Part shown: positions 26,454 through 63,112 of the stretch, piece by piece
Numbering within the stretch: the first letter of the stretch is position 1
Layout of the letters: every line of letters starts with the position of its first letter
NCBI GenBank assembly: GCA_030524175.1
Contig: JAUNHC010000008.1
Span: forward strand, 62,001 to 126,000
Direction of reading: 5' to 3'
Source of the DNA: Eubacteriales bacterium
GTDB lineage: Bacteria > Bacillota > Clostridia > Lachnospirales > Lachnospiraceae
Length of the DNA: 64,000 nucleotides
Notes under the pieces: model-generated
Seen by the model: only the letters and a program-made list of their open reading frames with translations
Databases searched by the model: none
What the model was told of the DNA's origin: nothing
Program-made: the position numbers and the translations under genes

Positions 26454-26734
26454 CAAAAATCCCGGTTCATGTCCTTTTAGGACGAGAACCGGGTCCCGTG
26501 TTACCACCTAAATTCACAGAAGACTCGCATCCTCTGCCTCCGTAAGTGACGTAATCCATCACTCCAGCACAATAACGGGTGCCATTCCGCCGCAGCCTAC
26601 TCATAATTTCAGTGCAGAGCTCCGGGATGTATTCACATGAGTTCCACAGGCGCCTCTCACCGTCCGGCTGCTCTCTGTCTGCTTGTGCTCAGGCTACTTC
26701 TTCCCTTCAAAGCTTTTCGCATATACTAATAGAG
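26454..26734 (-). promoter_or_regulatory. T-box riboswitch, tyrosine-specific
   Basis: On the minus strand the leader has a Stem I with specifier context GAA-TAC-ATC; the TAC (tyrosine) codon is at 26629-26631. The T-box sequence TAGGTGGTAACACG is at 26497-26510, and a terminator hairpin (stem 26461-26475 / 26479-26493, T-run to 26454) sits before tyrS. Uncharged tRNA-Tyr would pair with the T-box and block termination. The specifier agrees with the gene. Confidence 0.95.
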
Positions 26735-46097: not shown

Positions 46098-46201
46098 ATT
46101 TCAATTCACGAGATTCCATACGAATCTCGACTAAGGGCAAACGCCGTATGTCCTTTGAGACAGCAAAATTTCAATCCACGAGATTCCATACGAATCTCGA
46201 C
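46098..46201 (-). CRISPR. CRISPR array 2: two 34-nt type I-C-like repeats, one 36-nt spacer
   Basis: Repeats at 46098-46131 and 46168-46201 differ at one base. Each starts ATTTCAAT(T/C)CAC and ends in TCTCGAC; the core CGAGATTC-CATAC-GAATCTCG is a perfect 8-bp stem. In the minus direction the repeat begins GTCGAGATTC and ends GTGGATTGAAAT, the type I-C 5' handle end. The leader is on the right (46202-46366), with the more consensus-like repeat next to it. Only one spacer (46132-46167) remains. No cas gene is adjacent. Confidence 0.85.
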
Positions 46202-46366
46202 AGCAAAAATGCACAATTTATTCTCAATATTATATGTAATATCCCCAAATTTTTGTGCATTATTTATTTAGGAAATAATTAAGTAAGAATTCACTTATTT
46301 ATAAATATAGTTTGTTTTACTGGTGCGAATCCACCTATAATTTTATGTTTACTTATGATTCGCACT
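46202..46366 (-). promoter_or_regulatory. CRISPR leader 2 with inverted repeat
   Basis: A/T-rich leader beginning AGCAAAAATGC next to the repeat. At 46322-46365 is an inverted repeat with arms GGTGCGAATC and GATTCGCAC around TTTTATGTTTACTT. The same element, 120-127 bases from the first repeat, occurs in leader 1. To its right, up to 46550, I see only A/T-rich sequence. Confidence 0.7.
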
Positions 46367-46554
46367 TAATAGTTTTCAAACAAACTTTATTGACACTGAT
46401 TATGATGAATAAATTCCAAAATATATTATTATTTCAACACATCATTTCCATAAATTCTATCGTAGGAATATATTTATGAAAAGCCACTCTATACTCACTA
46501 AATCCCTAATATTGTCCCAAGACAATAAACAACTGGAAGTATCTCATAAATATG

Positions 46555-46945
46555 GACTTCGATTTATATTAGGCAGCAAAAAAATAACTATATTTAACTT
46601 TTTAATATTCTCTACACACGGGAAATATCCAACGAATTTATAGTCTATTAACATTTTATCCAAACTTTGACGGAGTTCTGTCAAAAGAAAGTTCCAGCAA
46701 TTTATATTCGTTCTCAATGATATCAACCACCTCAAAGTCAAACTTCTTAGGAAATGTTTAACCAGTAGCCAAGACTTTTGCCTTTTACACCAAGCATACA
46801 AAAGCTAGACTTACCCTTTTCTTTAGCATCGGACAAACAATACTCCATCAACGATTTTCCGTAACCTTTTCATTAAGCGTTCTAAAAACATGTCCTTCAT
46901 TTAGTCTGGATAGCCACTGCCGCTTTATTTCAATCAGTTCCATGG
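46555..46945 (-). pseudogene. Decayed GNAT acetyltransferase (YoaP-like), internal deletion and frameshifts
   Basis: Reading leftward on the minus strand, ATG 46943 starts MELIEIKRQWLSRLNEGHV, then jumps at ~46870 to GYGKSLMEYCLSDAKEKG in the same style as the acetyl-CoA region of YoaP-type GNATs, with the intervening ~35 residues missing. Downstream pieces KSWLLVKHFL, KFDFEVVDIIENEYKLLELS and DYKFVGYFPCVENIKKLN fall in different frames and are broken by stops. The 85-residue open frame at 46544-46801 is part of this wreck, not a gene. It overlaps the end of the intact GNAT at 46930. Confidence 0.7.
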
Positions 46946-47370
46946 TCCCCTGCTGTCACCCAAACTGACATGCCATGTCCGTCAAAATCATTTGGTCTTT
47001 TCAGGAATCCAAGATTCTCATAAAAACATTCTCTTTTCTTAGCAGAATTTAAAGCAAACATTATCCTGTCACCGGCTTGAGACGAATCAATAACTTTTTT
47101 CATTAAAGTTCTAACTATGCTCTCTCCGATTCCCTTTCGTTGATATTCTGGTAATACAATAATATCTGCTATATATGCAGTATATCCAAAATCAAATAAC
47201 ACTCTGCCCATACCTACTGCCTTTTCTCCATCTCGGGCCACGGTAATAAATGTAGAATGGTCTAATCCTCGTATTGCCTGCTGTTCTGTCAGCGCCTGCC
47301 AACCAACAGCGACTCTCAATTCATTATATTCTATACCCGTCATGTCTTCGCCAAATATAATCTTATTCAC
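46930..47370 (-). CDS. GNAT-family N-acetyltransferase (second of a coupled pair)
   Basis: 146 residues from GTG 47370, which overlaps the previous gene's stop as GTGA, with AAGGAG eight bases upstream. Core: ADIIVLPEYQRKGIGESIVRTLMK (loop Q-R-K-G-I-G, split here over ~residues 70-93) and CFYENLGFLKRP. Family: short YhbS/AAC-like GNATs. Coupling to the next gene implies shared expression. Confidence 0.88.
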   Translation of the reverse strand: MNKIIFGEDMTGIEYNELRVAVGWQALTEQQAIRGLDHSTFITVARDGEKAVGMGRVLFDFGYTAYIADIIVLPEYQRKGIGESIVRTLMKKVIDSSQAGDRIMFALNSAKKRECFYENLGFLKRPNDFDGHGMSVWVTAGDHGTD

Positions 47371-47885
47371 AATCTTATCTCCTTATATTCTTCGGTTTTA
47401 ATTGCCTTTTGCCAAAAAGGGGAATCTGTTTGGCAATACTTTTTCATTACAAAATTAGTGAGTAAGATTCCTTCACGATCTACTTGTTGTTCTTTTATCA
47501 TTTTATATCCACGCATTTCAAAAAAAGGACGAGCAGTAATCGAGGCATGAACTGTTATAGAAGACCCTAATGCTTGTTTTTCAAGCATGTTACAAATCTG
47601 GGTTCCAATGCCCTGTCCTTGGCAATCCTTATGAACATAAAGTCTGTCAATATAGCTATTAGCGGCATCAAAATCTCCAAAACCTGCAATCATCCCATTA
47701 TTTTCAACGACGATACTATAATGCTGCAGAAATGAACGGTTCCAGTCTTTAAAATCTATTTTTCCAGAAGCCCAAACATCTACCTGTTTCTGACTGTAAT
47801 CTCTTATATTAATTGTATGAACTGTTTCATAAAATAGCTTTGCTATTTGATTTAAGTCTTGTGGGTGATATCTTCTGATCATCAA
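47367..47885 (-). CDS. GNAT-family N-acetyltransferase (first of a coupled pair)
   Basis: 172 residues opening MMIRRYHPQDLNQIAKLFYETV, with IDRLYVHKDCQGQGIGTQIC (Q-G-Q-G-I-G loop) and ARPFFEMRGYKMIKEQQV, features of the YafP/ElaA-like GNAT group common in Firmicutes. It begins 73 bases left of CRISPR array 1. AGAGGAAG precedes the start; either of two adjacent ATG codons could be used. Confidence 0.88.
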   Translation of the reverse strand: MMIRRYHPQDLNQIAKLFYETVHTINIRDYSQKQVDVWASGKIDFKDWNRSFLQHYSIVVENNGMIAGFGDFDAANSYIDRLYVHKDCQGQGIGTQICNMLEKQALGSSITVHASITARPFFEMRGYKMIKEQQVDREGILLTNFVMKKYCQTDSPFWQKAIKTEEYKEIRL

Positions 47886-47958
47886 TTTATTTCTTCCTCT
47901 CTCTATTCCTATAGAGTGGCATTTCCTGGTCGAATCATTACGTCATTTGAGCAATTTT

Positions 47959-48530
47959 AATCTTCACCCATCTCTACACGCGTAAAGTGACACTGAGCCG
48001 CCGCATTTCCAATCTCAATGGATGAATTCCACCCCACACTTTACTCGCATAAAGTAACCAGGATTTTACTGGGAGAGGAAATGATTAAAAAAATTTCAAT
48101 TCACACTTTACCCGCGTAAAGTGACCAATTACCACTCGCTGTGGTTTGACAACTGGTTATTTCAATCCACACTTTACTCGCGTAAAGTGACCCAGGTCAT
48201 CATACATATAATCACGGATATAGCAATTTCAATCCACACTTTACTCGCGTAAAGTGACGCGATCCACACGCATCCTGTAAAAATTGTCCGGGATTTCAAT
48301 CCACACTTTTACTCGCGTAAAGTGACCGGTTACAGAGATGGGTAAACATGAGAGCAATATTTATTTCAATCCACACTTTACTCGCGTAAAGTGACCCGGG
48401 CGGTTATTTTTGAGGCCAAGCATACAGATATTTCAATCCACACTTTACTCGCGTAAAGTGACACTACTACGATGCGCAGATCTATGTTGATACATACATT
48501 TCAATCCACACTTTACTCGCGTAAAGTGAC
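47959..48530 (-). CRISPR. CRISPR array 1: nine type I-C-like repeats (33-34 nt), eight spacers
   Basis: Repeats at 47959, 48026, 48093, 48159, 48226, 48293, 48363, 48430 and 48498 (33 nt each; 48293 has one extra T). The consensus starts ATTTCAATCCACACTTTA and ends CTCGCGTAAAGTGAC, with palindromic core CACTTTAC-TCGC-GTAAAGTG. Spacers are 33-36 nt and unrelated to each other. The two leftmost repeats are degenerate and the third slightly so, marking the leader-distal end; the right end is identical to consensus next to the A/T-rich leader, so transcription runs leftward. In that direction repeats end GTGGATTGAAAT, as in type I-C. No cas gene is in the window. Confidence 0.95.
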
Positions 48531-48702
48531 AGCAAAATCATACAATAAAAGCCATTAATTTTTGTAAATCTATCACAAGTTTTTCTTTATTTTATCAAAA
48601 TATCTGAAAAACATCAAGTAAATCCCCTCAAATATCTCATATATATATCATTTATTTGGTGCGAATCTCCCGGGAGTTTTATGTTTACTTGGGGTTCGCA
48701 CC
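48531..48702 (-). promoter_or_regulatory. CRISPR leader 1 with inverted repeat
   Basis: A/T-rich leader starting AGCAAAATCA. At 48658-48702 arms GGTGCGAATC and GGTTCGCACC flank TTTTATGTTTACTT, the same element as in leader 2 and similar to an inverted repeat I associate with type I-C leaders. From 48703 to the PHP gene stop at 48809 I see only A/T-rich sequence. Confidence 0.75.
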
Positions 48703-48808
48703 ATTTCAATTTTAGTGATATGACCTTGCCAGTTACGCTTTAATTATATAACTGGGGATTGGGAAATCAAAATGTATAGCTTGATATAGATTGTTTCCTT
48801 AGCTTTTC

Positions 48809-57344: not shown

Positions 57345-57603
57345 AAATATAAAAGCCTTTCGTCCCTTGTCAGAGACGAAAGGCCGAAGCTTCCGTGGTA
57401 CCACTCTAATTCACCGGATTTCCGGTGCACTCTTTGATTCTGTAACGGGAACTCCCGTCCGGCCCTACTTAAATGTTCAGCCCGGCTGCTCCGAGGCGAG
57501 TTCAACTCCCTGTGCATCTGCCTCACACCACCCGGCAGCTCTCTGGATACACAACAAAAATCTACTACTCCTCATCCATGCATTTCTCTGTAAACTACTT
57601 GCT
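57345..57603 (-). promoter_or_regulatory. T-box riboswitch, leucine-specific
   Basis: Minus-strand Stem I contains GAA-CTC-GCC; the CTC (Leu) specifier is at 57498-57500. T-box AGAGTGGTACCACGG at 57394-57408, then terminator GCCTTTCGTC / GACGAAAGGC (57355-57384) with T-run. Specifier agrees with leuS. Confidence 0.95.
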
Positions 57604-60340: not shown

Positions 60341-63112
60341 TTATTTAACCACAATTTTCTTAATATCCGACCATTTTGTAAAATTCTTGGTGTAACCCTT
60401 TAGATAGGCATGTCCTGTCACATAATAGGTTCCGGGTTTAACATTTTTAAAAATAATTTTTGTACCGGTCTGATTTTTCATAATATATGAGTAATCCATG
60501 GTAAAGCCTGTATAATTCCCATCAGCATCTGTACTCACAGTCTTCACAAATACCCAGTCCGCACCTGTAGTTCCTTTTGGTCTGGACACATTTACAGTCA
60601 CATTTCTCCCTTTTATACTGGTATTCTTAATGACAGGGGCAGTATTTATTATTCCGTTTTTGACAGTAACCTTTATAAGCTTTGACCAAGGACTGAATAC
60701 TTTACGGTTTTGCTGATAGATATAGCTGTGGATCCCCACATAATAGGTCCCCTTGGCAGCACCTTTCAGTACGATCGTCTTGGAATCCCCGGAACAATTA
60801 ATGGTCTTTACTGCGTAATCAGAGGGAGTGTTTCCTGTTTTCTTCCTCGCAAGAACAGCATCAAATCCGCCGACCTTCTCCGGTGTTTTTATGGTAAGGC
60901 GCACATCGCAGTTTTTAACCTCTGTCTTTGTGATGGAGGGAGCCTTGGCCGTCTTTACAGTCACAGTGACCGGGGTGCTCTGTGACCAAAGGCCATACAC
61001 ATTCTTCCCTTCTTCTTTTCGGTAAGGACGGCAGTAGAGAAAGTAACTGCCCTTCTGAATATACTGGATAACAGCGGATGTGGATGTACTGTTCACAGAT
61101 TTCACAAAGCTGTTCTTCTCCAGGTCCGATTCCTTGGCAGTGAGGACAAATTGGTATCCCTCTGCGTCATTCACTCTGTCATATAAAGTAACATCGAGAT
61201 AATTGCCTGTAACCTTCGCTGTTTCAATCTGAGGCTGTCCCAGAGGGTCGTAGGCTTTCACCTGCACTGAAATTTCAACTGTGGTGTCAAGATCCTTATT
61301 ATTCTGCTCCTTTGGAATCTGCAGGTGTCCTTTGACTGTAAAATTCTGTTCCTCCTTGAGAGACGGATCATAGCTGCACTCTTCTGTATCCCATTCAACA
61401 GCCACATCGAACTGGGCCTCGCCCGCGCCGTTGACGCGCAGTGTTTCCGGCAGTTTTAATCCTACCGGACTTTTCTCTGCACCATTGGTAATACCCCCAA
61501 CAGGTTCAATAGGCAGCGCACTCTCAAAATTATAACTGCTTACAGTAAACCTGGCCTCCGCATAAGCAAGGGAAGATTTTCCTTCTTCTGTCTCAGCCCG
61601 GACATTCACCCACCACATATGACTGCCAACTTCCAGTCCTGAAGCTGGCTGCACAGTAAACTGCGCTGTTTCACCGGGAGCAAGGCTTGTCTTATCTATG
61701 CTTCCGATATCCAAATCTCTGCTGGAAAGCTGGGACAGCTTCACTGTATTGGTACTGATATTCTTCACAGTCAATGTTTGTTCCTGGGGTGCAGTGATAT
61801 AATACGCATATGCAGAATCAAAGGTTACTGAAGAAGGTGATATCTCAATATAATTCTGGGGCTTATCCGGCTTTGTGATATTCTGTACAATAGGTACAGC
61901 GAATCTGCTGCCGTCGTCTGTACATACATAAAACTCCTCCTGATAACTGCCATATTCATGCTTGGGCGTAATACACAGAAGGATACTGTCTCCCGGTTTC
62001 AATATGCGGTGTACATCCTCTGCCTCTTCATCGTCAATTTCAGCAGTATGGTCGCTTACAAAATAATTTTCAAGCATGGAAGTATCTCTTGTTACTTTAG
62101 TGTCCATCTTTCCTGTATTGGCAATCCGAACAAAAGTTTCGCCGTAAAGCTCATTGTCTTCCGAAAAAACATATTCATCCACCACAACCGTTTCCGGAAC
62201 AACAGTCAAATGATAATCCGCTTCTGAACGGCTGCCTATTGTTGCTTTCAAAGTAAATTCACATCTGGCGCCCTCATACGATACTAACGTTATCTTTTCC
62301 TCATAGGTACCTCCGGGCAATCCTTCTTTGCTCTTGACAAAAAGTCTTAAACGTCCGTTTCTGCCAATTTCAACGCCCTGGTCGTTTATCGGGTCAAACT
62401 GGAAATATTCACACTGCGGAAGTTCTGATATATGTACAGCCTCTTTACCGCAGTTGGTGATAAGCAGAGTTTTTGAAACATATTCTCCCGGAAGTGCATA
62501 TCCAAGATCTACAAGCCCCTCTTGTGCCTCAATCTCCATATCGTATGTGAGCCAAGGATCTGCCTTCTCAATAGTAAGCTCCAGTCTTCTCTCGGATTCC
62601 GCCTCCCCGTCTGCCGCTATTACATAGAAGCTGTTATCACCTTCCGTACGGGGAACTCCGGTAATGGCACCATCCTGAGTGAGAGTAAGGCCCTCTGGCA
62701 GAGTGTCTCCCCTTCCAAGTCTCCATCTGAGAGAATTTCCGGTTCTGCTGCTTCCTTCAAGCCGGGCTGAATAGTAGTCTCCCACTTTTCCATGGGGAAG
62801 GCTCAACGTACTGATATATGGCACATAAGCACGCTGGTCCTCTGCCCCATAGATTTCCGCCGTACCAGGTTCTGTTCCGGACTCCTGCCCTGAGAAAGAC
62901 ACCTCTGTCTCTTCCATGTTTTCTGATCGATCATCTATTAAATTCTCCGCTGCCTCGTCAACACCGCTTTCAAAGTTTTCTTCACTGTTAGCTGACGGAT
63001 ATTCCTCTCCTGAACTAAATAAATCTGATGCCAATACAGAAACAGGCATACTTGTTATCATTGCTGCGGCAACAGCAACCGCCGTCAGCTTCCTCCATAT
63101 TTTCTTCTTCAT
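60341..63112 (-). CDS. Large secreted protein with Ig-like and FN3-like domains (paralogue A)
   Basis: 923 residues from ATG 63112 (GGAAGG six bases upstream; earlier in-frame codons add basic residues with no ribosome site). Signal peptide MKKKIWRKLTAVAVAAAMIT then SMPVSVLAS. Domain order matches the downstream gene: putative-Ig (VGDYYSARLEGSSRTGNSLRW), beta-domain, two ASPM/Hydin-like parts, Big_4-like (VAVEWDTEECSYDPSLKEE) and three FN3-like repeats ending FTKWSDIKKIVVK. The two are clear tandem duplicates that have diverged a good deal. Likely transcribed together from a promoter at 63195-63222. Confidence 0.82.
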   Translation of the reverse strand: MKKKIWRKLTAVAVAAAMITSMPVSVLASDLFSSGEEYPSANSEENFESGVDEAAENLIDDRSENMEETEVSFSGQESGTEPGTAEIYGAEDQRAYVPYISTLSLPHGKVGDYYSARLEGSSRTGNSLRWRLGRGDTLPEGLTLTQDGAITGVPRTEGDNSFYVIAADGEAESERRLELTIEKADPWLTYDMEIEAQEGLVDLGYALPGEYVSKTLLITNCGKEAVHISELPQCEYFQFDPINDQGVEIGRNGRLRLFVKSKEGLPGGTYEEKITLVSYEGARCEFTLKATIGSRSEADYHLTVVPETVVVDEYVFSEDNELYGETFVRIANTGKMDTKVTRDTSMLENYFVSDHTAEIDDEEAEDVHRILKPGDSILLCITPKHEYGSYQEEFYVCTDDGSRFAVPIVQNITKPDKPQNYIEISPSSVTFDSAYAYYITAPQEQTLTVKNISTNTVKLSQLSSRDLDIGSIDKTSLAPGETAQFTVQPASGLEVGSHMWWVNVRAETEEGKSSLAYAEARFTVSSYNFESALPIEPVGGITNGAEKSPVGLKLPETLRVNGAGEAQFDVAVEWDTEECSYDPSLKEEQNFTVKGHLQIPKEQNNKDLDTTVEISVQVKAYDPLGQPQIETAKVTGNYLDVTLYDRVNDAEGYQFVLTAKESDLEKNSFVKSVNSTSTSAVIQYIQKGSYFLYCRPYRKEEGKNVYGLWSQSTPVTVTVKTAKAPSITKTEVKNCDVRLTIKTPEKVGGFDAVLARKKTGNTPSDYAVKTINCSGDSKTIVLKGAAKGTYYVGIHSYIYQQNRKVFSPWSKLIKVTVKNGIINTAPVIKNTSIKGRNVTVNVSRPKGTTGADWVFVKTVSTDADGNYTGFTMDYSYIMKNQTGTKIIFKNVKPGTYYVTGHAYLKGYTKNFTKWSDIKKIVVK

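Follow-up and report, generated by a model that had tools for sequence, protein, structure and literature searches.

Two cas-less type I-C CRISPR arrays with different repeat stems and a shared leader palindrome in a Lachnospiraceae genome carrying one complete type I-C operon

The window, meaning the whole 64-kb stretch of DNA that was analyzed, contains two CRISPR arrays with their leaders and two intervening acetyltransferase genes (Table 1). The repeats of both arrays start with GTC, contain a hairpin, end in the handle GTGGATTGAAAT, and have the 32- to 34-nt length of type I-C repeats, and both leaders sit on the side where the handle is transcribed last, as is the case for type I-C. The two repeats have stems with no sequence relationship to each other, and each can form a hairpin. 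A first-pass annotation made from the sequence had described two arrays with matching ends, unlike stems, and the same inverted repeat in both leaders, flanked by genes for GNAT and PHP proteins; repeat calls, folding, and an open reading frame scan bore this description out. The inverted repeat follows the pattern GTGCGAA-29-TTCGCAC, which matched twice in the window versus zero times in 100 shuffles, and both arrays belong to the palindrome-led leader family treated below, array 2 being out of phase.

Table 1. Positions of the CRISPR features and intervening genes in the window.
Feature	Position	Strand	Description
Array 2	46098..46201	-	2 repeats of 34 nt (GTCGAGATTCGTATGGAATCTCGTGGATTGAAAT) flanking a single 36-nt spacer
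Array-2 leader	46202..46366	-	TTTTGCT|GTC junction, as at array 1
Palindrome 2	46323..46365	-	GTGCGAA-29-TTCGCAC pattern, 121 bp ahead of first array-2 repeat
GNAT acetyltransferase between arrays	46930..47370	-	Family scan; outside the CRISPR system
GNAT acetyltransferase between arrays	47367..47885	-	Family scan; outside the CRISPR system
Array 1	47955..48530	-	9 repeats of 33 nt (GTCACTTTACGCGAGTAAAGTGTGGATTGAAAT), 8 spacers
Array-1 leader	48531..48703	-	Junction AGCAAAA (plus strand) 48531-48537 = TTTTGCT|GTC
Palindrome 1	48659..48701	-	GTGCGAA-29-TTCGCAC, 128 bp ahead of first array-1 repeat

Array 1 contains seven good repeats between 48093 and 48530, one of which has a 1-nt insertion, and two degenerate repeats at its distal end (approximately 47955-48058). 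Its leader-proximal repeats are perfect and its eight spacers, of 33 to 36 nt, are unique; array 1 is probably usable as a memory locus. The two repeats of array 2 (46098-46131 and 46168-46201) differ by one change in the distal copy, and the outermost pair (A/C) of its palindrome is broken. The array-2 spacing is off the helical phase of most relatives and places this array among five out-of-phase sites, so that this array, which holds just one spacer, probably accepts new spacers poorly or is in decay.

The seven flanking open reading frames that were scanned encode three GNATs, a DNA-alkylation repair protein, a PHP protein, a MATE protein, and an 85-amino-acid product without a family. No cas3-cas5d-cas8c-cas7-cas4-cas1-cas2 operon was found adjacent to the arrays, and a tblastn search of the 64-kb window with 11 Cas proteins from the same genome gave a best E value of 0.055, in agreement with the earlier statement that the window lacks cas reading frames. 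An Rfam scan of the window returned no CRISPR repeat family; it did identify T-box leaders (RF00230) on the minus strand at 26475-26719 and 57369-57587, with scores of 103.5 and 140.4 bits. Promoter and terminator predictions in this region were at chance level (13 promoter-like sites versus 12.9 expected). Relatives of the PHP gene were located at 80 loci, a set from which the host species was absent and in which the closest, from Lacrimispora, showed 71% identity; neither the palindrome nor a pair of I-C handles was found at any of these loci.

The assembly comprises 5.95 Mb in 119 contigs, with the window on contig C55, and is 90.7% complete, which means that a second cas operon could be missing from it. 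The sole cas1 gene found in the genome and the sole canonical Cas5d scoring over the cut-off are both on another contig, C100, in a complete type I-C operon (cas3-cas5d-cas8c-cas7-cas4-cas1-cas2) that is followed by an array. A genome-wide search with the 12-nt handle recovered arrays on C23, C26, C55, and C100; two lone GTGGATTGAAAT 12-mers, an intergenic one on C50 and one within a reading frame on C67, were taken as chance occurrences. A search for the palindrome matched seven places, all of them leaders, five of which precede handle-bearing arrays and two of which precede arrays with other repeats, namely, GTCTTCGCTTGCGAGAGCGAAGCGGGTTGAAAT on C87 and GATGTAACTTGCGCGTGCGAGAGTATGGAAAC, in 17 units, at C23a. 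Outside the window, the genome holds the complete operon and five arrays in addition to the two described above. All seven palindrome-led arrays carry different repeats, and six of the seven are located away from the operon with cas1. The distance from the end of the palindrome to the first repeat is 118 to 130 bp overall (128 at C100 and C23b, 118 at C23a, 127 at C26, and 130 at C87; values for the window are in Table 1). Pairwise identity among the seven leaders is 80% in the 45-bp palindrome and 70% in the last 10 bp before the repeat, versus 32% in the 45 bp next to the palindrome and 30% in the 45 bp upstream of it.

Contig C23 also contains a second effector set, cas5-cas8-cas7-cas3, which represents a divergent I-C variant (L036 10680-14333; L034 336-2564). 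Its Cas8 scored 444 bits against the PADLOC model PDLC01562, and its Cas5 scored 21 bits against TIGR01876, for which the cut-off is 85. No cas1, cas2, or cas4 gene was found between positions 62000 and 90000 of C23. The array at this effector has a very different repeat, with GAGTATGGAAAC where the window repeats keep the I-C handle, and has the palindrome in its leader; the C23b array lies 3.3 kb from the effector. With its cas5-cas8-cas7-cas3 genes and a palindrome, and with no cas1, cas2, or cas4 found, the C23 effector would share the adaptation module of C100. In the C23 Cas3, which adjoins the 17-repeat array, the HD motif is retained, but Walker A, DEAH, and the arginine of motif VI are missing, so that this Cas3 appears helicase dead by its motifs. 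A partial relative in genome G015 (L041) also lacks the helicase motifs, and they are kept in the Cas3 relatives of G104 (L083) and G099 (L129).

Related arrays are common in sister genomes; their absence, which the first-pass annotation had named as evidence against the arrays, is thus not what was observed. Within the genus, exact I-C-type repeats (matched with one pattern) were found in 16 of 64 genomes, the palindrome (at most 2 mismatches) in 14, one of them by chance, and cas1 in 25. Genuine palindromes accompany cas1 (10/13 genomes versus 15/51, p = 0.003), and an array lies at the expected distance from 15 of the 17 palindrome sites. Across the family, the palindrome (at most 1 mismatch) was present in 35 of 298 genomes, with up to six copies per genome; 31 of the other 34 palindrome-bearing genomes contain cas1, and one of the three without it represents a chance match. 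All but one of the 63 sites fetched from genomes other than the host's had an array at the expected distance. Eight further family sites, in G345, G230, G105 (twice), G171, G114, G088, and G262, and two sites in G484 were not fetched in full and are outside these counts; two of them, in L081 and L082, show I-C repeats. At the level of the phylum, palindrome matches occurred in 23 of 398 genomes across many families, and at L224 the palindrome leads an array whose repeat is exactly the one given for Bacillus halodurans in the accessible part of a review (PMC3890593). Matches in G053 and G162, which had no array, were dropped as chance, and L041 and L230, where the sequence is masked right after the palindrome, were left out. 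At L250, the palindrome is present and no array was found.

In a viral collection, the palindrome occurred on 19 contigs (L251-L269), ahead of I-C repeats on L253, L258, L260, L261, and L263 and ahead of arrays with other kinds of repeats on L255, L256, L257, and L264. In G099 (C1:5098511-5099380), cas1 is broken into three pieces with stops, and in G347 (L111) weak cas4, cas1, and cas2 remnants adjoin an array; palindromes are intact in both genomes.

The distance between palindrome and repeat is not spread evenly. The 84 distances in the first set fell at 116 to 122 (22 sites), 125 to 130 (52 sites), 134 (1 site), 137 to 140 (8 sites), and 158 bp (1 site). The best period, fitted on these same 84 distances, which were copied by hand, was 10.4 bp with an R value of 0.743, compared with a mean of 0.28 and a maximum of 0.47 in 2,000 rounds of a jitter null, and 79 of the 84 sites deviated from the shared phase by no more than 2.6 bp. 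Of the 32 sites that fall outside the main cluster, 29 were in phase (16 versus 3 genomes, p = 0.004), and steps of about one helical turn were found inside single genomes (G000, G176, G271, G273, G268, and G189). When GTC was taken as the start of the six repeats with extra leading bases, 75 of 84 sites were in phase, with a period of 10.65 bp. In a second set from the phylum, in which 26 of 28 fetched sites were measured (in 4 of these the script found no recurring unit), distances were mostly 123 to 128 bp with a mean of 125.4 bp, approximately 2.5 bp short of the 128 bp of the first set; longer spacings of 138, 139, 148, and 159 bp fit the period, and one of 115 bp is borderline. A preferred, roughly helical spacing is therefore supported, although the phase varies within the phylum, the second set being shifted by about 2.5 bp.

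The diversity of stems within single genomes recurs among the relatives. The stem count covered 82 arrays from 39 genomes; two arrays with a very different repeat, C23a and one other, were excluded, and 73 of the repeats copied from other genomes were rechecked. In 16 of the 18 genomes with at least two palindrome-led arrays all repeats are different, and 59 of the 61 arrays are distinct within their genome. The differences range from loop changes alone (G271 and G350) through paired substitutions to unrelated stems, which is what duplication and drift would give. Among the 77 distinct repeats, 51 different 7-nt arms occur, and with the register held fixed 93.3% of arm positions are paired, versus 66.3% (maximum, 70.9%) when the arms were re-dealt; 69 of the 77 start with GTC and 50 end in TGGATTGAAAT. 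Paired arms together with a kept handle are the trace that would be left by a nuclease dependent on both hairpin and handle. In the 18 multiarray genomes, Cas5d over the curated cut-off was found exactly once in 15, twice in two, and not at all in one, a profile search that could miss only the divergent kind, and exactly one cas1 match was found in 13. The premise of the first-pass annotation that Cas5d normally reads stem sequence is not supported: the accessible text of a review describes recognition of the hairpin structure and of the single-stranded 3' part of the repeat (PMC3890593), and the single Cas5d in most genomes with differently stemmed arrays weakens the premise further.

As cas-less I-C arrays, the arrays in the window are objects of an ordinary kind; their arrangement is unusual and recurs in other genomes. 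The anatomy, the one operon, the shared leaders, the distinct stems, their covariation, and the preferred spacing are observed, and both arrays probably serve as peripheral memory loci for the one type I-C system, encoded on C100, through biochemical steps that we infer. Between the options raised by the first-pass annotation, this favors two arrays sharing one distant Cas set, given that a single complete I-C operon lies on a different contig and that all seven arrays follow the same kind of leader. The inactivity that the annotation considered for one or both arrays may apply to array 2. The shared palindrome suggests that one set of spacer-writing enzymes recognizes the leader rather than the hairpin sequence. 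The Cas4-Cas1-Cas2 proteins of C100 would find arrays by a palindrome located approximately 12 turns upstream at a preferred phase and by the TTTTGCT|GTC junction, with a bend or loop in the DNA bringing the palindrome to the integrase. Each new spacer would copy the leader-proximal repeat, so that each array would come to hold one sequence, drifting separately from those of other arrays. Cas5d would require the hairpin and the TGGATTGAAAT handle and no given stem; with Cas5d indifferent to stem sequence, stems would change by paired (compensatory) substitutions, and crRNAs from all I-C-type arrays would load the same Cascade. An assay of the B. halodurans Cas4-Cas1-Cas2 proteins used a substrate with a 10-bp leader, according to the accessible part of that report (PMC6519985), and the palindrome is thus not needed in vitro.

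Neither the whole of array 1 nor the array-2 spacer matched any of 50,697 phage records, and six of the nine window spacers, each turned into a 24-nt seed pattern in which three positions were free, matched zero viral contigs apiece; this second scan covered array-1 spacers 1 to 4 and 8 and the array-2 spacer. For a type I-C array, spacers would be expected to match mobile DNA beside a TTC-type PAM. This lack of matches for the spacers searched would fit cas-less arrays that are relics of separate I-C loci, which lost their cas genes, gain no spacers, produce no useful crRNA, and resemble each other in their leaders because all I-C leaders do. Such loss appears to be in progress in G099, with its fragmented cas1, and in G347, with its adaptation gene remnants; the orphan arrays are short, and array 2 combines a lone spacer with a palindrome that is out of phase. 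We nevertheless consider this explanation unlikely. The surrounding neutral leader sequence is only about 30% identical, in contrast to the palindrome (80%) and the junction (70%), the leader-proximal repeats of array 1 are perfect, and six or seven dead loci in one genome, together with the 16 of 18 multiarray genomes in which all repeats differ, would demand much independent decay.

Palindromes upstream of promoters are classical operators, and CRISPR leaders carry promoters. The palindrome could accordingly be the operator of a transcription factor that controls array expression rather than a landing site for integration, a possibility that we judge quite unlikely, since the preferred spacing runs to the repeat, where integration occurs, and sites of the same genome can differ in it by one helical turn. 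It is more improbable still that different Cas5 proteins read different arrays, as the first-pass annotation had allowed, the Cas5d of C100 serving some and the divergent Cas5 of C23 serving others. The complete second effector, the very different repeat of its adjoining array, and the proximity of C23b could all be taken in that direction; however, seven repeats are too many for two Cas5 proteins, the window repeats keep the I-C handle that the array at the C23 effector does not have, and a single Cas5d over the cut-off is the rule in the multiarray genomes.

The window arrays, read as memory loci of the C100 system, resemble type I-C (Dvulg) systems, such as that of B. halodurans with its Cas4-Cas1-Cas2 and Cas5d, in repeat length, GTC start, hairpin, GTGGATTGAAAT end, spacers of 33 to 36 nt, and a complete operon. 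The difference is that, of the seven arrays, six are remote from the cas1 operon, and no two share a repeat. For other CRISPR types, motifs in the leader and their phasing are already known. Santiago-Frangos et al. 2021 and Buyukyoruk et al. 2025 are said to have described subtype-specific upstream motifs in leaders, some of them I-C, whose phase matters for adaptation, and reportedly covered IHF-bent leaders, including I-C leaders with IHF sites. Among the papers listed by a literature search, with most subscription papers out of reach, none dealt with this palindrome or with a single I-C genome holding private stems, which is weak evidence for their novelty. According to the accessible part of a recent survey, repeats are often diverse and deviant in arrays remote from cas loci, and such arrays may be misclassified, inactive, or false (Fehrenbach et al. 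2026, PMC12814883); unlike the arrays described in that part, the deviant repeats here stand in register behind a shared palindrome and keep their stem pairing. The same text cites adaptation in trans between II-C and VI-B systems (Hoikkala et al. 2021, cited in PMC12814883). As in that case, as far as it is described there, one Cas1-Cas2 may serve the arrays of another effector; here, in contrast, both effectors are I-C-like, the palindrome is shared, and the use in trans is our proposal.

More broadly, it is conceivable, and we put it forward tentatively, that leader identity rather than repeat identity addresses integration in the type I-C systems of Firmicutes, the phased palindrome allowing one Cas4-Cas1-Cas2 to write to a fleet of arrays with private stems and also to the array of an effector without adaptation genes. 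As part of such a scheme, private stems may also make it harder for arrays to recombine with each other and so cause deletions. It is common practice to discount distant arrays that have odd repeats, on the view that they are false, misclassified, or dead. With a leader mark held in common, those that are still attached to a particular Cas1-Cas2 could be told apart, more spacers would be counted in the repertoire of a host, and a simple test would become possible of whether Cas1-Cas2 recognizes the leader or the repeat. The arrays would also supply a collection of naturally occurring stems that one Cas5d tolerates.
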